Source of the DNA: Burkholderiales bacterium | Lineage (GTDB): Bacteria; Pseudomonadota; Gammaproteobacteria; Burkholderiales; Eutrophovitaceae | Direction of reading: 5' to 3' | Assembly: GCA_035560005.1 (NCBI GenBank) | Contig: DATMAN010000020.1 | Span: 1-64,000, forward strand | Length of the DNA stretch: 64,000 nucleotides | In this document: positions 41,485 to 49,161 of the stretch, one piece after another | How positions within the stretch are numbered: position 1 is the stretch's first letter | How the letters are laid out: each line of letters opens with the position of its first letter | Translations under genes and position numbers: made by a program | Notes under the pieces: generated by a model | Told to the model about the DNA's origin: nothing | Seen by the model: the letters and a program-made list of their open reading frames with translations, nothing else | Database searches by the model: none

Positions 41485-41600
41485 GAAGGAAACCTTTGAA
41501 TTGGCGAAAGAAGTGTAGCACCCCCCGGCGGTGGACGCCGAGGCTCGAAACGGGCGTCGCGGTGCTTTACACTTCGGCCAGCACAGCACGGAGCCACGGG

Positions 41601-42395
41601 ATGCGCAACTACCTCGATCTCATGCGTCACATTCTGGAGCACGGCACGCGCAAGACCGATCGCACCGGAACGGGAACGCTGAGCCTGTTCGGTGCGCAGT
41701 TGCGCTTCGACCTGCAGCAGGGTTTTCCGCTGCTCACCACGAAGAAGATCCACCTGAAGTCGATCATCCACGAATTGCTGTGGTTCCTGAGCGGAGACAC
41801 CAACGTCCGCTATCTCAGGGAACACGGCGTGACCATCTGGGACGAATGGGCGGACGCGGAGGGCGACCTGGGGCCGGTGTACGGATATCAATGGCGGTCG
41901 TGGCCGGCAGCGGACGGGCGCCACATCGACCAGATCTCACGCGTTCTGGAGGAGATCAAGCGCCACCCCGATTCGCGACGGCTGATCGTGTCGGCGTGGA
42001 ACGTGGGCGACCTGGACAAGATGGCGCTCGCGCCGTGCCACGCGTTGTTTCAGTTCTACGTGGCCGACGGACGGCTGTCCTGCCAGCTCTACCAGCGCAG
42101 CGCCGATTTTTTCCTCGGCGTGCCGTTCAACATCGCCTCCTATTCGCTGCTCACGATGATGGTCGCCCAGGTCAGCGGGCTCAAGCCCGGCGACTTCGTG
42201 CACACCTTCGGAGACTGCCATCTCTATCTCAACCATCTCGAGCAGGCCCGCGAGCAGTTGTCCCGCGAGCCGCGCGCGCTGCCGCGCATGATCCTCAACC
42301 CACAGGTCAGGAGCCTCTTCGACTTCAAGTACGAAGACTTCACGCTGGTGGGCTACGACCCGCACCCCGCCATCAAGGCCCCGGTGGCGGTGTGA
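41601..42395 (+). CDS. thyA: Thymidylate synthase
   Basis: Makes dTMP from dUMP using methylene-tetrahydrofolate. It has 264 residues, the same as E. coli, from the ATG at 41601 ([20 protein letters not shown]). The catalytic Cys is in [12 protein letters not shown], with [20 protein letters not shown] following. The stop overlaps the GTG start of the dihydrofolate reductase gene, so the two folate-cycle enzymes are coupled. A TTACACTTCGGC motif sits 22 bp upstream. Confidence 0.98.
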
Positions 42396-42919
42396 ACAGC
42401 GAGCCAGGGGCTCCGAACCGCCAGAAAGCCCGCCCGCGCATCTCCCTCATCGTCGCCTACGCGGCCAACCGCGTGATTGGCCGTGACGGTGCGATCCCCT
42501 GGCATCTGTCCGAGGATCTGCAACGCTTCAAGCGGCTCACGATGGGCCACCACATCATCATGGGCCGCAAGACCTGGGAATCCATCGGGCGTTTGCTGCC
42601 CGGGCGCTCCCACATCATCGTCAGCCGCAGGGCCGACTATCGCGTGCCGGGCGCGCAAGTGGTCGATTCGATCGAGGCGGCGATCGCGGCGGCCGCGGAC
42701 GACTCCGAGATCTTCGTGATCGGCGGTGAGCAAATCTACCGCCTCGCGCTGCCGCTTGCCCAGCGCATTCTCGCCACCGAGATCGAGCGCGAGTTCGCGG
42801 GCGACGCCCGCTTTCCGGAACTGGATGCGCGGCACTGGCGCGAGACCGCGCGGGAGGATCGCAGCGACGCGGCCAGCGGCCTGCGTTATCGCTACGTCAC
42901 TTTCGAGCGCCGCGGCTGA
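42392..42919 (+). CDS. folA: Dihydrofolate reductase
   Basis: Regenerates tetrahydrofolate after ThyA. It has 175 residues from a GTG overlapping the thyA stop (GTGA). After a 16-residue hydrophilic lead the fold begins [20 protein letters not shown], with [11 protein letters not shown] supplying the active-site acid, then [20 protein letters not shown] and [19 protein letters not shown]. It is convergent with the FecR-domain gene. Confidence 0.96.
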
Positions 42920-42971
42920 GCTACGGTCGTGGCCGGCGCTGAGTAGGCTCCGCGGTGACTCGATTCAGCGC

Positions 42972-44279
42972 TCACTGCTTCGCAAACGCCGCCGCACCGA
43001 CGAAGCTCCCGGCGATGTCATAGACCATTCCCGCCCGCGGCGCATTGAGGCCGAAGAACGCGAGATCCGCGTTGACGATGCAGTTGGCTCCGCAGACTCC
43101 CGACATGCTCAATGCGTTCGACCCGGAGCCCGATAGCGTGGCGCTGAGCGGCACGCCGTTGATGGTCCAGAACATTTCGGCGGTGGCCGCGTTCAAACCG
43201 GCAGACAAGCCGTTGAAATCCACGCTCAGCTTCGCGGCGTCGAGGGTTCCAACCGCCTGATTCAGGGCGTCGGTGACGGGCGTCGATCCGATCAGGGTGT
43301 AGATGCCCGTCGTCGTGCCGATGCTTGCGAGATCGGCCGGTCGGCCCGCCACGAAGTGGGCGAGCGTTCCATTCGCCACCACCAGCGCCTGCTGAAGCGC
43401 CTGCGTCTCGTCATCACCGGAAGACGACTCGACAAAGGTGCCCCAGGACATGATCCCGTCGTTCCCACCCATGGTCACCGACTCCACCGGCTGGCCATCG
43501 ATGCTGAGCAACGTGCCATTCGCGTCGAACTCCATCGTGGCGCTTTGCAGGCTGCGACTGGTACTCTTCAACAGATCGAGGGTCTGGGTACCCACCAGCG
43601 CGAAGAGCGCGGGAAACCCGCTCGCGTCCACGGTCTCGCCTTGCTTGAGATCGGCAGGGGGGCTACCCGGCTGGGCCGGCGGCAGATCGGTTTTCTTGTC
43701 GGTCAACACCGGCTTCGTGTCCTGGTTCTGGACGTAATACGACTCGCCGTTCGCCACGTTGATGCAGCCAGCACCGTTGCAGACTTCGATCTCCCCTTCG
43801 CCAACCGTCCCCCTGATCGACTGGCCGTACTGGATCGTGTATTCCGTGCCGCGGATGCCGATGGTCGCAACGGTGGTACTGACCTGGTAGTTCTTCTTGT
43901 TGGAGCGGCCCACGAACCCGGTGATCGTGCGCAGCCCGCCCTTGAGCAGGCTGAAGAACGCCTTCTCGGAGCCGTCCTGCTTGCCAGCGTAGCGGTATTG
44001 ATCGATCCGGAATTCCGACTGTGGCTGCAGCGAGACGTAGGCCCCGTCGGTAAAGCGCAGCTGTGCACGCCCGTCGTTGGTAAGAATCGTTTCGCCCTCC
44101 TCGACCCGCAAGCCCTTGGTCAGCGCCCGCGACCGGCCGGCCTTGTCGACGGCCGCGACGTTGCCGATGGCAAAGTCGACCCGTGCCGCCGTCGCCCCGT
44201 GCGCCGCGGCGGGCAACGCGGCCGCAAGCGAAGCCAAGAGCAGCGCCCGGCTTGTGAGCTTGAATGTCTCGAGTTGCAT
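42972..44279 (-). CDS. Exported FecR-domain protein with TbpB-like C-terminal domain (putative Slam substrate)
   Basis: 435 residues from the ATG at 44279, preceded by GGGAGG at 5-nt spacing. The Sec signal peptide (SRALLLASLAAALPAAAHGA) lacks a lipobox, so it is probably not a lipoprotein. The FecR domain covers about residues 34-170 (GLRVEEGETILTNDGRAQLR, VATIGIRGTEYTIQYGQ). The last about 80 residues resemble the TbpB-type small beta barrel: ADLAFFGLNAPRAGMVYDIA then GSFVGAAAFAKQ, close to the GGFFGPxAxExGGxF..GAFxAK signature of Slam-exported proteins. It lies 51 bp downstream of the Slam-like gene. Ligand and function unknown. Confidence 0.7.
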   Translation of the reverse strand: MQLETFKLTSRALLLASLAAALPAAAHGATAARVDFAIGNVAAVDKAGRSRALTKGLRVEEGETILTNDGRAQLRFTDGAYVSLQPQSEFRIDQYRYAGKQDGSEKAFFSLLKGGLRTITGFVGRSNKKNYQVSTTVATIGIRGTEYTIQYGQSIRGTVGEGEIEVCNGAGCINVANGESYYVQNQDTKPVLTDKKTDLPPAQPGSPPADLKQGETVDASGFPALFALVGTQTLDLLKSTSRSLQSATMEFDANGTLLSIDGQPVESVTMGGNDGIMSWGTFVESSSGDDETQALQQALVVANGTLAHFVAGRPADLASIGTTTGIYTLIGSTPVTDALNQAVGTLDAAKLSVDFNGLSAGLNAATAEMFWTINGVPLSATLSGSGSNALSMSGVCGANCIVNADLAFFGLNAPRAGMVYDIAGSFVGAAAFAKQ

Positions 44280-44330
44280 GGGCACCTCCCTCGCACTGGC
44301 GTTCCGATGCTTCCCAGCACCGGTGAGAAC

Positions 44331-45671
44331 TCAGAAATCGTGCCGAAACATCAGCGAGACCAGCCAGCGATCGAACTCGTTGATGTCGAGGTTGGACCGG
44401 TTGTCGGTCCAGTGAGCCTGCAGGGTCAACCGCAGGTTTCGCCGCGGAGCGAAATGAACGCCCCCCGCGGCCGCGTACTGCTCGTCCTCCCGCTCGACCA
44501 GGAACAGCGGATCCGGACCGCCATATTGCCGCTTTTCGGCGCTGGCATTGACGAAGACGGAGAACTTCTCGCTCAGGGACCACTGGGTGCCGATCCGGGC
44601 ACCGTACAGATCGTGCCCGAACTGAGGAAACGCCTCGTCCTTCTCGCGTTCCTGCCCGCCGTAGACGCCTAGGTACACGACCAAGCCGCCCTGCTCGCCG
44701 AGTGCGCTGGCATAGCCCGCGCCGCCGACGAAACGGTCGGCATCGCGCGGTCGCTGCTCCGGGTATGTCAGTTGGGTGTATTGCGCGTACGCGCTGGCCT
44801 GATTCCTGGCGTTGAAGTCGTGTTGCCACTGCAGCGTGCCGCCAACGGCTTCCCGATACGCGTTGCGGTAGCGCTGGGGGTCGTCGACGAAGAAAGCGCT
44901 CAACTGCGCGGCGAGCGTCACCGTGTCGCGGTCACGTTTGTAGCTCAGACCCGTGTGGGCGTCCCACGAATAGGTCGAGAAATCGTCTTCATTGATGTTG
45001 GTCTTGTTCGTGTACGACACCCCGCCCAACGCCGACAGGGTCCGCGAGACCGGCGCTCGGATTGCCACGCCGCCGCCGAAGGCCAGATACCCATCCTCTT
45101 GCTCCTGGCTCGACGCCGTCAGCGTGAAGATCGCACCGCCGAACGCGGGAACCGCGACCTGATTCTCGGCCGTGGCGCTGTTGACGTTGGAGTCGTAGCC
45201 CCCGCCGACCTCGACGTACCCGCGGATCGTCACGCGCTGCGCTTCCTCCACGCGCCGGATCGCATCCAGGAAGCGGTCGATCGTCACCCGCGCCTGTTCC
45301 GGAATCTCCTGCTTCTTGACGTTCTCGAACTCGCGCTTGGCCGTCTCGGTTTCCTTCAGGTTGAAGTACGCTCGTGCGATCAGCGCCCGCGCGGGCGCGG
45401 AATCGGGGCGCACCGCCAGCACGCGTTCCAGCGCGAACACCGCCTCGGTGTTCTTGCCGAGCTGCAACGCGGCCGAACCGAGCAGGAAGTCGTAGTCGGG
45501 GTCGCCGGCGCGCTCGCTCTGCAGCGCAACGAGCAGGTTGTAGGCTGCCTGCGGCTTGCCGCTGTCGAGGTGACGTTTGGCCTCTAGCAGCACATCGTCG
45601 GCGGCCGAAGCCGCCAACGGTGAAGCCAGCACCAGGCCGGCGACGAGCGCCAAAGATCGAAGCAGATGCAT
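44331..45671 (-). CDS. Slam-like outer membrane translocator (TPR plus DUF560 barrel)
   Basis: 446 residues. Signal peptide 1-23 (VLASPLAASAADD); TPR region about 25-130 (AVFALERVLAVRPDSAPARA); then a beta barrel with alternating aromatic strands starting near RVTIRGYVEVGGGYDSNVNS and closing WLVSLMFRHDF with a terminal Phe. This is the layout of surface lipoprotein assembly modulators. GGAGGGAG lies six bases before the ATG at 45671. It is upstream of and co-transcribed with the FecR/TbpB-like gene, supporting a secretion pair. Another TPR-plus-porin outer membrane protein is the alternative. Confidence 0.72.
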   Translation of the reverse strand: MHLLRSLALVAGLVLASPLAASAADDVLLEAKRHLDSGKPQAAYNLLVALQSERAGDPDYDFLLGSAALQLGKNTEAVFALERVLAVRPDSAPARALIARAYFNLKETETAKREFENVKKQEIPEQARVTIDRFLDAIRRVEEAQRVTIRGYVEVGGGYDSNVNSATAENQVAVPAFGGAIFTLTASSQEQEDGYLAFGGGVAIRAPVSRTLSALGGVSYTNKTNINEDDFSTYSWDAHTGLSYKRDRDTVTLAAQLSAFFVDDPQRYRNAYREAVGGTLQWQHDFNARNQASAYAQYTQLTYPEQRPRDADRFVGGAGYASALGEQGGLVVYLGVYGGQEREKDEAFPQFGHDLYGARIGTQWSLSEKFSVFVNASAEKRQYGGPDPLFLVEREDEQYAAAGGVHFAPRRNLRLTLQAHWTDNRSNLDINEFDRWLVSLMFRHDF

Positions 45672-45753
45672 CAGCAGCTCCCTCCGCGTACGGCTCCTCT
45701 CGTGGGCGCCCTCGAAATCCGAAGGCTCGGTTTTAAATGCGTTTTTCGCTCGG

Positions 45754-45783
45754 AACGTATCAGAACCCGCCGCGCCACGTCAA
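45754..45783 (-). promoter_or_regulatory. Promoter of the Slam-like operon
   Basis: Minus strand TTGACG (45783-45778), an 18-bp spacer and TACGTT (45759-45754). A 13-bp perfect palindrome ATGCAA-A-TTGCAT on that strand (45794-45806) lies about 10 bp upstream of the -35, a good place for an activator. Confidence 0.5.
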
Positions 45784-45838
45784 AGCATTTTCCATGCAAT
45801 TTGCATCTGACTGGCAGCGCAAGCGCTTCGCGTCCGAC

Positions 45839-45864
45839 AAAAAAAGCGGCGGAGAATCCGCCGC
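45839..45864 (-). terminator. Intrinsic terminator after the PLP decarboxylase gene
   Basis: Minus strand: GCGGCGGA-TTC-TCCGCCGC followed by TTTTTTT, an 8-bp GC stem with a strong U-tract 30 bp after the decarboxylase stop codon. Confidence 0.93.
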
Positions 45865-45893
45865 CCCTTCTGGGCCCGAGGGATGCGGGCAGG

Positions 45894-47066
45894 TCAGACG
45901 AGCCGCACGTCGGGCAGCGGAAACCCGTTGAACTGGCTGGCGTAGGCGGTGGTGTACGCGCCGGCGTTGGGGATGTAGATGAAATCGCCGTCCTGCAGGT
46001 CTTCGGGGAGCATCTGGTCCTGCATCAGTACATCGACCGAATCGCAGGTCGGTCCCGCCACATGCCACGGCACCCGCTTGCCGTTGCGGTCGGTCCGCAG
46101 GTCGTATTGAAGACCCTGCGTGCTCTCCAGCAAACCGCCGAACATGCCGGTATCCAAATACAGCCAGCGTCTCCCGGCCCGCCAAGCCGTTCCGATCACG
46201 CGGCAAACGAAATACGCGGAATCCGACACCAGGTAACGGCCCGGCTCCGCCATGAGGCGGATGTCCCCCGGCAGATCGGCAACCGCGCGATTGACGACCT
46301 CGGCGATGGTCTCGATCGACGGGATCGGTTTGGTCAGGCGAACCGGAAAGCCACCGCCGATGTTGAGCAGCGAGGGCGTCAAGCCCTTCAGGCGCATCTT
46401 GCGGAAGATGCGCTTGGCGTTGTCGATGGCGACGTGCCAATTCTGAGCGTTGCGGCACTGCGACCCCACGTGGAAGGTCACGCCGCACAGGTCGGCCCCG
46501 CGCTGCGCCGCGGCGTCGAGGATCTGATCGATTTCCGGGCCCTGCGCACCGAACTTGCCCGACAGTGGCCAGTCGCTGCCCACGTTCGGGGTATCGATGC
46601 GCAGGTACAACTTGGCCTGCGGCGCGACGCTGTGGATCTTCACCAGCTCTTCGGCACTGTCCAGCGAGAACCACTGCACGCCTTTGCGCGCCGCGTATTC
46701 GATGTACTGCCGCGCCTTCACCGGGTTGCTGTAGTGCACTTCGGCCGCCGGCACGCCCAGCGAGAGCAAGAGATCCAGCTCGGCGGTAGACGCGATCTCG
46801 AAGCCCGCGCCTTCCTCGGCCAGAACCCCGACTACCCGAGGATCGGGGTTGGCCTTCACCGCGTAGTGCGCGCGCACGCGCGGCATGGCGGCGTGGAAGC
46901 GCCGGTACTTGGTGCGGATGATCTCGGGATCGATCAGGAGAAAGGGTCTCGCGTAGCCTGCCTTGAGGGCTTCGCGCACGTGCCGGAAGTCGAGACTGAC
47001 TTCCGGATGGGTATCGAGCGGGACTTCGTGGGCGGTATTGCGGTCGAGCGCGGTGCGCAGGGTCAT
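45894..47066 (-). CDS. Ornithine/lysine decarboxylase, alanine-racemase-fold (type III PLP)
   Basis: 390 residues from the ATG at 47066. The PLP lysine is in AHYAVKANPDPRVVGVLAEE; other blocks are VTFHVGSQCRNAQNWHVAID, LLNIGGGFPVRL, RLMAEPGRYLVSDSAY and the active-site Cys in GPTCDSVDVLM. The CDSVD motif and length indicate an eukaryote-like ornithine (or ornithine/lysine) decarboxylase making putrescine or cadaverine rather than a diaminopimelate decarboxylase, but substrate preference is inferred. Its ATG overlaps the stop of a 29-residue leader ORF. It has its own promoter and terminator. Confidence 0.88.
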   Translation of the reverse strand: MTLRTALDRNTAHEVPLDTHPEVSLDFRHVREALKAGYARPFLLIDPEIIRTKYRRFHAAMPRVRAHYAVKANPDPRVVGVLAEEGAGFEIASTAELDLLLSLGVPAAEVHYSNPVKARQYIEYAARKGVQWFSLDSAEELVKIHSVAPQAKLYLRIDTPNVGSDWPLSGKFGAQGPEIDQILDAAAQRGADLCGVTFHVGSQCRNAQNWHVAIDNAKRIFRKMRLKGLTPSLLNIGGGFPVRLTKPIPSIETIAEVVNRAVADLPGDIRLMAEPGRYLVSDSAYFVCRVIGTAWRAGRRWLYLDTGMFGGLLESTQGLQYDLRTDRNGKRVPWHVAGPTCDSVDVLMQDQMLPEDLQDGDFIYIPNAGAYTTAYASQFNGFPLPDVRLV

Positions 47067-47152
47067 GCCGGGGCTCCTCGGGGCGAACGGGTGACGGACA
47101 GGTGCCAAAGTACGAGTTGTGCCACCTCGAGGCGGTTCCTCTTGCCTGTCAT
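47063..47152 (-). CDS. 29-residue leader ORF coupled to the decarboxylase
   Basis: ATG at 47152 follows a near-perfect ribosome binding site (AAGGAGGT, 5 nt from GGAGG to the ATG) and encodes MTGKRNRLEVAQLVLWHLSV then TRSPRGAPA. The TGA overlaps the decarboxylase ATG (ATGA). The decarboxylase itself has only GAGGAG inside this ORF. The arrangement looks like a translated leader controlling or coupling decarboxylase synthesis. I recognise no family. Confidence 0.6.
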   Translation of the reverse strand: MTGKRNRLEVAQLVLWHLSVTRSPRGAPA

Positions 47153-47193
47153 GATGACCTCCTTCCGGGCCGATACCGCAAAAAATGACGCGA

Positions 47194-47221
47194 ATTATAG
47201 GCGCCGCTGCCCGCGGCGCAA
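47194..47221 (-). promoter_or_regulatory. Promoter of the leader/decarboxylase operon with symmetric spacer
   Basis: Perfect TATAAT -10 (47199-47194) with TTGCGC (47221-47216) 16 bp upstream. The -35 and spacer contain GCGCCGC-GGGCA-GCGGCGC, a perfect 7-bp inverted repeat, which could be an operator or part of the dcd 3' end hairpin. Confidence 0.65.
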
Positions 47222-47251
47222 GATAATTTCAGGCGCGACTGCGCGCAGCGT

Positions 47252-47824
47252 CTACATCTTTGGGGGTGTGACGCCGCGCTGGCCCTGGTACTTGCCGCCG
47301 CGGTCACGGTACGAAGTCTCGCAGACGTCATCGGGCGCGGACTCGAAGAAGATCACCTGCGCCACGCCTTCGTTGGCGTAGATCTTTGCGGGCAGCGGCG
47401 TGGTGTTGGAGAACTCCAGCGTCACATAACCTTCCCACTCGGGCTCGAAGGGCGTGACGTTGACGATGATCCCGCAGCGGGCGTAGGTCGACTTGCCCAG
47501 ACAGATGGTGAGCACGTTGCGCGGAATGCGGAAATACTCCACCGTCCGCGCGAGGGCAAAGGAGTTCGGCGGGATGATGCAAACCTCCCCCCTGAAATCG
47601 ACGAAAGAGCGCTCGTCGAACTGCTTGGGGTCGACGATGGTCGAGTTGATGTTGGTGAAGATCTTGAATTCATTGGAGCAGCGGATGTCGTAGCCGTAGC
47701 TCGAGGTCCCGTACGAGACGATCTTGTGCCCGTTGACTTCCTTGATCTGCTGCGGCTCGAAAGGCTCGATCATGCCGTGCTGCTGCGCCATGCGGCGGAT
47801 CCACTTGTCGGACTTTATGGTCAT
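47252..47824 (-). CDS. dcd: dCTP deaminase
   Basis: Trimeric deaminase converting dCTP to dUTP for thymidylate supply. The ATG at 47824 ([20 protein letters not shown]) gives 190 residues, the normal size. The conserved [20 protein letters not shown] and [20 protein letters not shown], whose Ser, Arg and Glu are active-site residues, are present. Upstream codons in the same frame are translation of a dispersed repeat and not part of the protein. Confidence 0.97.
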
Positions 47825-47835
47825 TGCCGATCCTT

Positions 47836-47966
47836 GTAAGTAACCACAGAGGCACAGAGTCCCGGAACAAGGTCGAATCGCGCGCAACCGGTCGGTACGA
47901 GGCGCCCGCCTGGCGGGCGGCCCGCCGGTTCTCGCCTTTGTTCTTCTCTGTGGTTCTGTGGCAGGC
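47836..47966. repeat. Dispersed CACAGAGGCACAG-type inverted repeat, copy 4
   Basis: AACCACAGAGGCACAGAG (47842-47859) is mirrored by TTCTCTGTGGTTCTGTGG (about 47944-47961), with an 85-bp centre holding a CGCCCGCC-type GC hairpin. It fills the whole space between apbC and dcd. It is the best preserved of the paired copies in this window. Confidence 0.75.
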
Positions 47967-49055
47967 CTACGTATTCTGAATCACGATCTTGGGGAAGGCC
48001 GCGCTGTAGTCGCGGGCCAGCGCCGAGATCTTCGCCGCCACCTTGCGCGCGATTTCGCGGTATACCTGGGCCGAGCGGCTGTCGGGATCGGACACGACGG
48101 TGGGGCGCCCGGAATCGGCCTGTTCGCGGATCTTGATGTCGAGCGGGATCTGCCCGAGCAGGTCCACTCCGTAGTCCCGGCACATCTGCTCCGCGCCGCC
48201 CGCGCCGAAGATGTGCTCTTCGTGCCCGCACTTCGAGCACACGTGCGTGCTCATGTTCTCCACCACGCCGAGGATCGGAACGCCGACCTTCTCGAACATC
48301 TTGAGCCCCTTGCGGGCATCGATGAGCGCGATGTCCTGAGGCGTGGTGACGATCACCGCGCCGGTCACCGGCACCTTCTGCGCAAGCGTGAGCTGGATGT
48401 CGCCGGTACCGGGCGGCAGATCCACGACGAGGTAGTCCAGCTCCTTCCATTGCGTGTCGCGCAGCAGTTGCTCCAGCGCCTGGGTCACCATCGGTCCGCG
48501 CCAGACCATCGGCGTATCCACGTCGATGAGCAAGCCGATCGACATGGCCTGCACGCCGTAGTTGATCATCGGCTCGATGGTCTTGCCGTCGCTGGACTGC
48601 GGGCGGCCCGAAAGTCCCATCATCATCTGCTGCGACGGGCCGTAGATGTCGGCGTCGAGAATGCCGGCCCTGGCGCCTTCCGCGGCCAGCGCCAGGGCGA
48701 GGTTCACCGCCGTGGTGGACTTGCCCACGCCGCCCTTTCCCGATGCCACCGCGATGATGTTCTTGACCCCGCTCAGCAGCTTCAATCCGCGCTGCGCCGC
48801 GTGCGCCACGATTCTCACCGACACGTCCACGCAGACCGCTCCTGCGCCGGGCAGGGCCTTGAGCCGGTCGGCGATCGACTGCCTTATACCCTCGATCACG
48901 CTCTTCGCCGGATAGCCGAGCACGATCTCGACCGTGACGTCGTTGCCCGCGACCTTGACAGCCTTGACCTCCCCGCCGGTGACGTAATCCTTGCCGGTGA
49001 CGGGGTCGATCAACTGGGCTAGCGCCGCCTTGACCTGCTCTTCGCTGATTGCCAC
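47967..49055 (-). CDS. apbC: Iron-sulfur cluster carrier protein ApbC/Mrp
   Basis: P-loop ATPase that transfers Fe-S clusters. It has 362 residues from a GTG at 49055, with GAGG seven bases upstream. An N-terminal DUF59 domain ([20 protein letters not shown]) precedes the deviant Walker [21 protein letters not shown] near residue 102, and the cluster-binding CxxC lies in [19 protein letters not shown]. It is divergent from metG. Confidence 0.95.
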
Positions 49056-49161
49056 GGGAGAACCTCGGGAACGAGGCCGCAATTGTAGCGAAACGCCCTG
49101 TGCGCGAATACGTTAGCACGGTAGGGTTTGTTACACTTCGGCTCTTTCATTGGGCGACTCG

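Follow-up and report, generated by a model that had tools for sequence, protein, structure and literature searches.

A probable type 11 secretion pair with a predicted FecR-domain cargo

Two adjacent genes in a 64,000-nucleotide stretch of DNA from a Burkholderiales bacterium (contig DATMAN010000020.1; the whole stretch is hereafter the window) probably belong together as exporter and cargo of type 11 secretion (a cognate Slam pair), in which a Slam-like outer-membrane protein would export a protein carrying a FecR domain. They share the minus strand, with the barrel gene first, and exactly 51 bp separate the stop codon of the one from the ATG of the other (Table 1). A first-pass annotation, made from the sequence alone, had proposed such a pair and given the same spacing; the common minus strand is an added detail. 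The proposal draws on the anatomy of the two genes, the membership of the barrel protein in the Slam family, the homology of the FecR protein's C-terminus to known cargo domains and the conserved pairing of the genes among relatives. In the source genome PF04575 has one gene, FecR five matches and the C-terminal domain a single copy; all three occur together only at this locus.

The barrel protein

The N-terminus of the barrel protein, MHLLRSLALVAGLVLASPLAASAADD, is signal-like, and its C-terminus reads ...FRHDF, with a terminal Phe. PF04575 (SlipAM) matches residues 155-446 (E 5.7e-13; 49.5 bits, cut-off 22), and generic tetratricopeptide repeat (TPR) models score above cut-off at residues ~25-130. 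PF04575 was also found in 21 of 22 relatives. The AlphaFold2 model, built with two sequences, is of moderate confidence (mean predicted local distance difference test score, pLDDT, 73.8; predicted template modelling score, pTM, 0.59) and contains helices at 25-144 followed by exactly 14 long strands at 148-445, the number that the first-pass annotation had expected of a DUF560 barrel. Structural alignment of the barrel part returned the 14-stranded CymA (Z 23.8) and OmpG (Z 21.5) as best matches, and TPR proteins for the N-terminus. Searches of the PDB with single sequences gave nothing informative; a search with the A2 profile matched TPR proteins almost exclusively. The barrel protein is a divergent member of the DUF560/Slam family.

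The FecR protein and its C-terminal domain

As judged by eye, the FecR protein starts with a signal-like sequence without a lipobox. PF04773 (FecR) matches residues 65-164 (E 9e-12; 45.7 bits, cut-off 24), so that this part of the first-pass description also holds. A lipobox pattern was flagged in three of 51 relatives; since the window protein has no lipobox cysteine, it falls in the soluble cargo subclass and not among the Slam-dependent surface lipoproteins. No other part of the system is as conserved as the FecR domain, whose median pairwise identity is 45%; the barrel reaches 30% and the C-terminal domain 26%. A second FecR protein of the same genome (L067 7869-8987, C101) is 49% identical to the window protein over residues 12-318; it ends in a Gly/Ala-rich tail and has neither the cargo domain nor a Slam gene.

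Cargo of the type 11 secretion system (T11SS) is defined by an N-terminal effector and a C-terminal eight-stranded barrel (PMC8406197, PMC12282271). The window FecR protein ends in FFGLNAPRAGMVYDIAGSFVGAAAFAKQ, and the last ~170 residues of its relatives share the pattern W-G-(R)-W ... H-Y-V-x-G-x-P-T ... A-T-Y ... F ... G-F-F-A-G-x-N-A-x-R-A-G-x-x-Y ... G-A-A-A-F. A profile of this domain (A1; 21 sequences, including that of the window) was compared with the PDB, and its five best matches were all TbpB or LbpB (E 0.003-0.85). The NCBIfam model NF041636 (slam_lipo, "Slam-dependent surface lipoprotein") matches six of the 21 members, at best with 5.5e-8, and in a relative with the same gene arrangement (L134) the FecR protein scores above cut-off for TbpB_B_D (29.0 versus 26 bits). 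Profile A1 finds both barrels of a PF01298 cargo encoded beside a classical Slam (L166) and also matches an HphA-like cargo (L169), and it gave no match at E<1 against 2,418 reversed open reading frames (ORFs). Because it recognizes both barrels of a real TbpB-like cargo and no reversed ORF, the TbpB-like motif pointed out in the first-pass annotation is not due to chance. Profile-profile comparison of the domain with two classical cargo C-termini gave a probability of 90.6% (E 1.3e-6). Together, the profile comparisons identify the C-terminal domain as a homologue of the TbpB-type cargo barrels. Of the 8-stranded barrel predicted earlier for this region, the homology stood, whereas the structure model could not be used; the eight-stranded fold is thus supported by profile homology only.

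At locus L134 (4597-11871), a single Slam-like gene precedes the genes of two FecR proteins, the first of 1,334 aa and the next of 1,040 aa; the Pfam-level TbpB_B_D barrel belongs to the latter.

Recurrence of the pair among relatives

Starting from the barrel, we surveyed 250 genomes of the order, which contain 82 PF04575 places. A FecR match lies within 2.5 kb at no fewer than 48 of them, and at least 45 of these FecR genes stand immediately downstream of the barrel gene on the same strand. With ~4 scored FecR matches per ~4 Mb genome, well under one such neighbouring case is expected by chance. The count is a lower bound, since at least five more FecR neighbours (L172, L173, L176, L178, L183) occur among 20 of the 34 remaining places; most of the other remaining places are classical Slams with high PF04575 scores.

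A class-wide survey from the cargo side, based on the C-terminal domain alone, found that domain in 33 of 369 genomes. Thirty of the 36 loci examined have both FecR and a Slam-like barrel. Contig ends truncate three of the remaining six. In a fourth, L121, a barrel accompanies a cargo that bears the C-terminal domain and in which no FecR was detected. The last two (L103 5988-7331 and L104 6038-7537) encode proteins with the cargo C-terminal domain and without FecR, beside an adenylate-forming enzyme, and show no Slam-like gene within the examined stretch.

In a tree of 83 barrels, 13 classical-type Slams stand apart (100/99) from a clade of 67 rows, and 63 rows of that clade are FecR-linked. 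This proportion describes the clade as sampled, because the tree rows come largely from loci found through FecR or the cargo domain; the survey starting from the barrel is the less biased measure of pairing. Genome G131 has both kinds of Slam, each with its own cargo (L042, L168). No relatives were found in the viral contigs searched, and a plasmid search returned a single weak match, to FecR only. When the full cargo profile was run against the phylum, most of what it picked up was the FecR domain on its own, so that search is no measure of how widely the pair is spread. The pair recurs across dozens of bacterial families, and barrels of this branch are as a rule linked to a FecR cargo. The first-pass annotation had called the substrate unusual: a FecR cargo without lipobox was indeed found, but it is no isolated case. 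Its reading of the two genes as a Slam pair is otherwise supported in every part open to computation, apart from the eight-stranded fold.

Proposed mechanism and alternative explanations

In the mechanism that we infer, the FecR protein would cross the inner membrane by Sec and be held unfolded in the periplasm, where the TPR/barrel protein would recognize its TbpB-like C-terminal domain and convey the FecR protein to the cell surface by way of the 14-stranded barrel. There, for want of a lipid anchor, it would be either released or retained through its FecR part. On this view the C-terminal domain would act as the address label, and the conserved FecR domain as effector or anchor. The FecR part can be read in two ways: as a surface effector, released or loosely held, or as an anchor that does not leave. 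By analogy with characterized cargo we favour export of the whole chain.

Several observations weigh against the assignment as a Slam pair or against surface export. The Slam-specific TPR profile PF24575 remains below cut-off in the window barrel protein (15.0 versus 35.2 bits); nine of the 22 relatives match it at E<=0.01. The top Foldseek matches of the barrel protein are to BcsC, a TPR-barrel polysaccharide exporter. Pfam leaves the C-terminal domain of the window FecR protein, taken alone, unnamed, with no PF01298 match; its profile-profile comparison with the single L166 sequence was insignificant; and the cargo structure model (three sequences, pLDDT 35.6) was unusable and was not interpreted. 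Finally, a LysM domain precedes FecR in some relatives, which would suit a periplasmic rather than a surface N-terminus.

With BcsC leading the Foldseek matches, the barrel fold alone is no proof of a Slam, and no Slam structure appears among the matches listed by Foldseek or by structural alignment. It is the sequence profile and the partner gene, not the fold, that discriminate a Slam from other TPR-barrel exporters. We regard it as very improbable that the barrel is a porin or polysaccharide exporter of the EpsL/BcsC/PelB kind with the FecR protein as periplasmic accessory: the weak matches to EpsL (TIGR03014) and BBP2_2 that would favour it fall below cut-off while SlipAM lies above, the model has 14 strands as do the OmpG and CymA barrels, the partner carries a Slam-cargo domain, and no polysaccharide synthase gene is adjacent within the window. 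Even less credence, indeed hardly any, can be given to a FecR-type sigma-factor regulator beside an unrelated outer-membrane protein. The PF04773 domain is what such a regulator would have, but the N-terminus is a cleavable-type signal where a regulator would have a cytoplasmic anti-sigma domain (none appeared in the Pfam scan) and a transmembrane helix, neither a FecI nor a TonB receptor gene is among the immediate neighbours, and the protein ends in a domain of the Slam-cargo type.

A more serious alternative, though still an unlikely one, is partial export, in which only the C-terminal part would leave the cell and FecR, or LysM-FecR, would remain periplasmic, either plugging the way or holding on to peptidoglycan, in the manner of the retention module of LapA-type adhesins. 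Sub-threshold matches of the FecR-like N-terminal segment to that module (NF033682) occur in 16 of 18 relatives, the best at 8.5e-9, and weak matches to it and to Leptospira Lsa33 and LipL45 in 16-18 of the 18. The LysM domains, the lack of a lipid anchor and the greater conservation of FecR than of the barrel in 98% of pairwise comparisons point the same way, as do FecR-like N-termini within open frames of 2,000-5,800 aa elsewhere in the phylum (G793:C30, G928:C80, G829:C37 and others), which resemble giant adhesins carrying a retention module. Against this, characterized T11SS cargo leaves whole, the window protein's own retention match (29 versus 50 bits) is below the curated cut-off, and LysM could also act outside the cell. 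Less probable again, in our estimate, is a form of surface display in which retention would depend not on lipid but on FecR as a plug within or beneath the Slam-type barrel, and the cargo of many betaproteobacterial relatives would be glycosylated in the cytoplasm by a glycosyltransferase of family GT41 before export.

Glycosyltransferase and adenylate-forming neighbours in relatives

A TPR-type GT41 gene lies close to the pair in 17 of 27 order-level loci and in one of 23 class-wide. Examples, SPINDLY/OGT-like, are L039 4056-6245, L042 4301-6484, L055 8423-10558 and L061 8183-10279. With ~130 GT41 match rows in 25 genomes, at roughly two rows per gene, ~1% of loci are expected to have one within 8 kb by chance. 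A search of the whole source genome found no GT41, which is therefore context and not part of the window's system. Cargo that has a GT41 neighbour resembles cargo that has none in Ser/Thr content and in N-glycosylation sequons, so that the possible glycosylation of the cargo is suggested by gene neighbourhood alone. CHASE2/cyclase neighbours had been expected near the pair; Pfam showed GT41 instead.

An adenylate-forming enzyme of ~455 aa stands beside the pair in nine of 27 order-level and two of 23 class-wide loci, but not in the window. Pfam gives AMP-binding only, and PaaK/CapK-like is a naming from sequence. These enzymes adjoin the cargo gene, sometimes two or three in a row (L041 5249-6619, L048 8991-10355, L056 2452-5198, L058 2445-6594).

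Comparison with known systems

Slam/T11SS proteins (DUF560, PF04575; Slam1, NilB, HrpB) share with the window barrel protein an N-terminal TPR part, a 14-stranded barrel and an adjacent cargo gene. While classical Slams of the order reach up to ~308 bits with PF04575, the window barrel scores far lower, falls in a separate clade and has a FecR protein as partner. The soluble haemophores HphA, HrpC and haemophilin are likewise non-lipidated, with a variable N-terminal effector, a C-terminal barrel-type domain and a Sec signal, which is putative in the window protein; in the latter, however, the N-terminal domain is FecR and not haem-binding, and the C-terminal domain remains under Pfam thresholds. 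The surface lipoproteins TbpB and LbpB (PF01298) have, by profile, a homologous C-terminal barrel domain, whereas the window cargo lacks a lipobox, has one barrel-type domain and carries FecR in place of the ligand-binding lobes. The N-terminal FecR-like segment is similar to the LapA retention module and to LipL45 and Lsa33, but all of the window's matches are below curated cut-offs and the exporters differ. In two-partner secretion adhesins modified by HMW1C/GT41 (PMC3983070), as in many relatives of the window pair, a GT41 gene accompanies the genes for a secreted protein and for its exporter in the outer membrane; here the exporter is Slam-like, and the transferase is TPR/SPINDLY-like and absent from the source genome.

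Nine of the ten T11SS sequence clusters have no characterized member, and for most T11SS outer-membrane proteins the cargo is neither known nor predicted (PMC8406197, PMC12282271). The present work assigns a predicted cargo type, FecR with a TbpB-like C-terminal domain, to a large environmental T11SS branch across many families and makes export directly testable. Slam/T11SS is itself a known kind; no description of the FecR-linked branch, and no publication linking FecR to T11SS/DUF560, was found in the literature searched, where supplementary tables may hold an unlabelled FecR entry. It has been suggested that T11SS cargo may be glycosylated (PMC12282271), a suggestion on which the recurring GT41 neighbour bears.

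Organization of the locus

Table 1. Features of the Slam-like/FecR gene pair and its upstream region (window coordinates)
Feature	Coordinates	Strand	Remarks
Slam-like (DUF560/T11SS) outer-membrane protein, 446 aa	44331..45671	-	putative signal peptide ~aa 1-24, TPR aa 25-144, 14-stranded barrel (model) aa 148-446
TPR domain of barrel protein (aa 25-144)	45240..45599	-	TPR_19, TPR_16, TPR_8 matches; model helices
DUF560 beta-barrel (aa 148-446 + stop)	44331..45230	-	PF04575 at 155-446; 14 strands in model
Intergenic gap, 51 bp	44280..44330	-	Shine-Dalgarno GGGAGG at 44290-44285, 5 nt before ATG
Predicted T11SS cargo, 435 aa from ATG	42972..44279	-	putative Sec signal, FecR domain, TbpB-like C-terminal domain, no lipobox
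Putative Sec-type signal peptide of FecR protein (~aa 1-29)	44193..44279	-	by inspection; no Cys near cleavage site
FecR domain (aa 65-164)	43788..44087	-	PF04773
C-terminal TbpB-like cargo domain (aa 257-435 + stop)	42972..43511	-	profile A1; TbpB/LbpB best PDB matches; NF041636
Terminator-like hairpin + T-run, between upstream decarboxylase gene and barrel gene	45848..45865	-	weak

The hairpin is weak because two such structures were found where 2.0 were expected. Convergent thyA and folA genes (window 41592-42919) adjoin the pair, in agreement with the report of thymidylate synthase and dihydrofolate reductase near cluster 3 T11SS (PMC12282271). Upstream of the barrel gene, dcd and a decarboxylase gene are found both in the window (41592-49082) and in relatives L039, L041 and L046, a conserved synteny. 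The type of decarboxylase differs. That of the window is Orn_Arg_deC, of fold III, whereas L039 and L041 have OKR_DC_1, an unrelated enzyme of fold I; a non-orthologous replacement has apparently taken place at this position.
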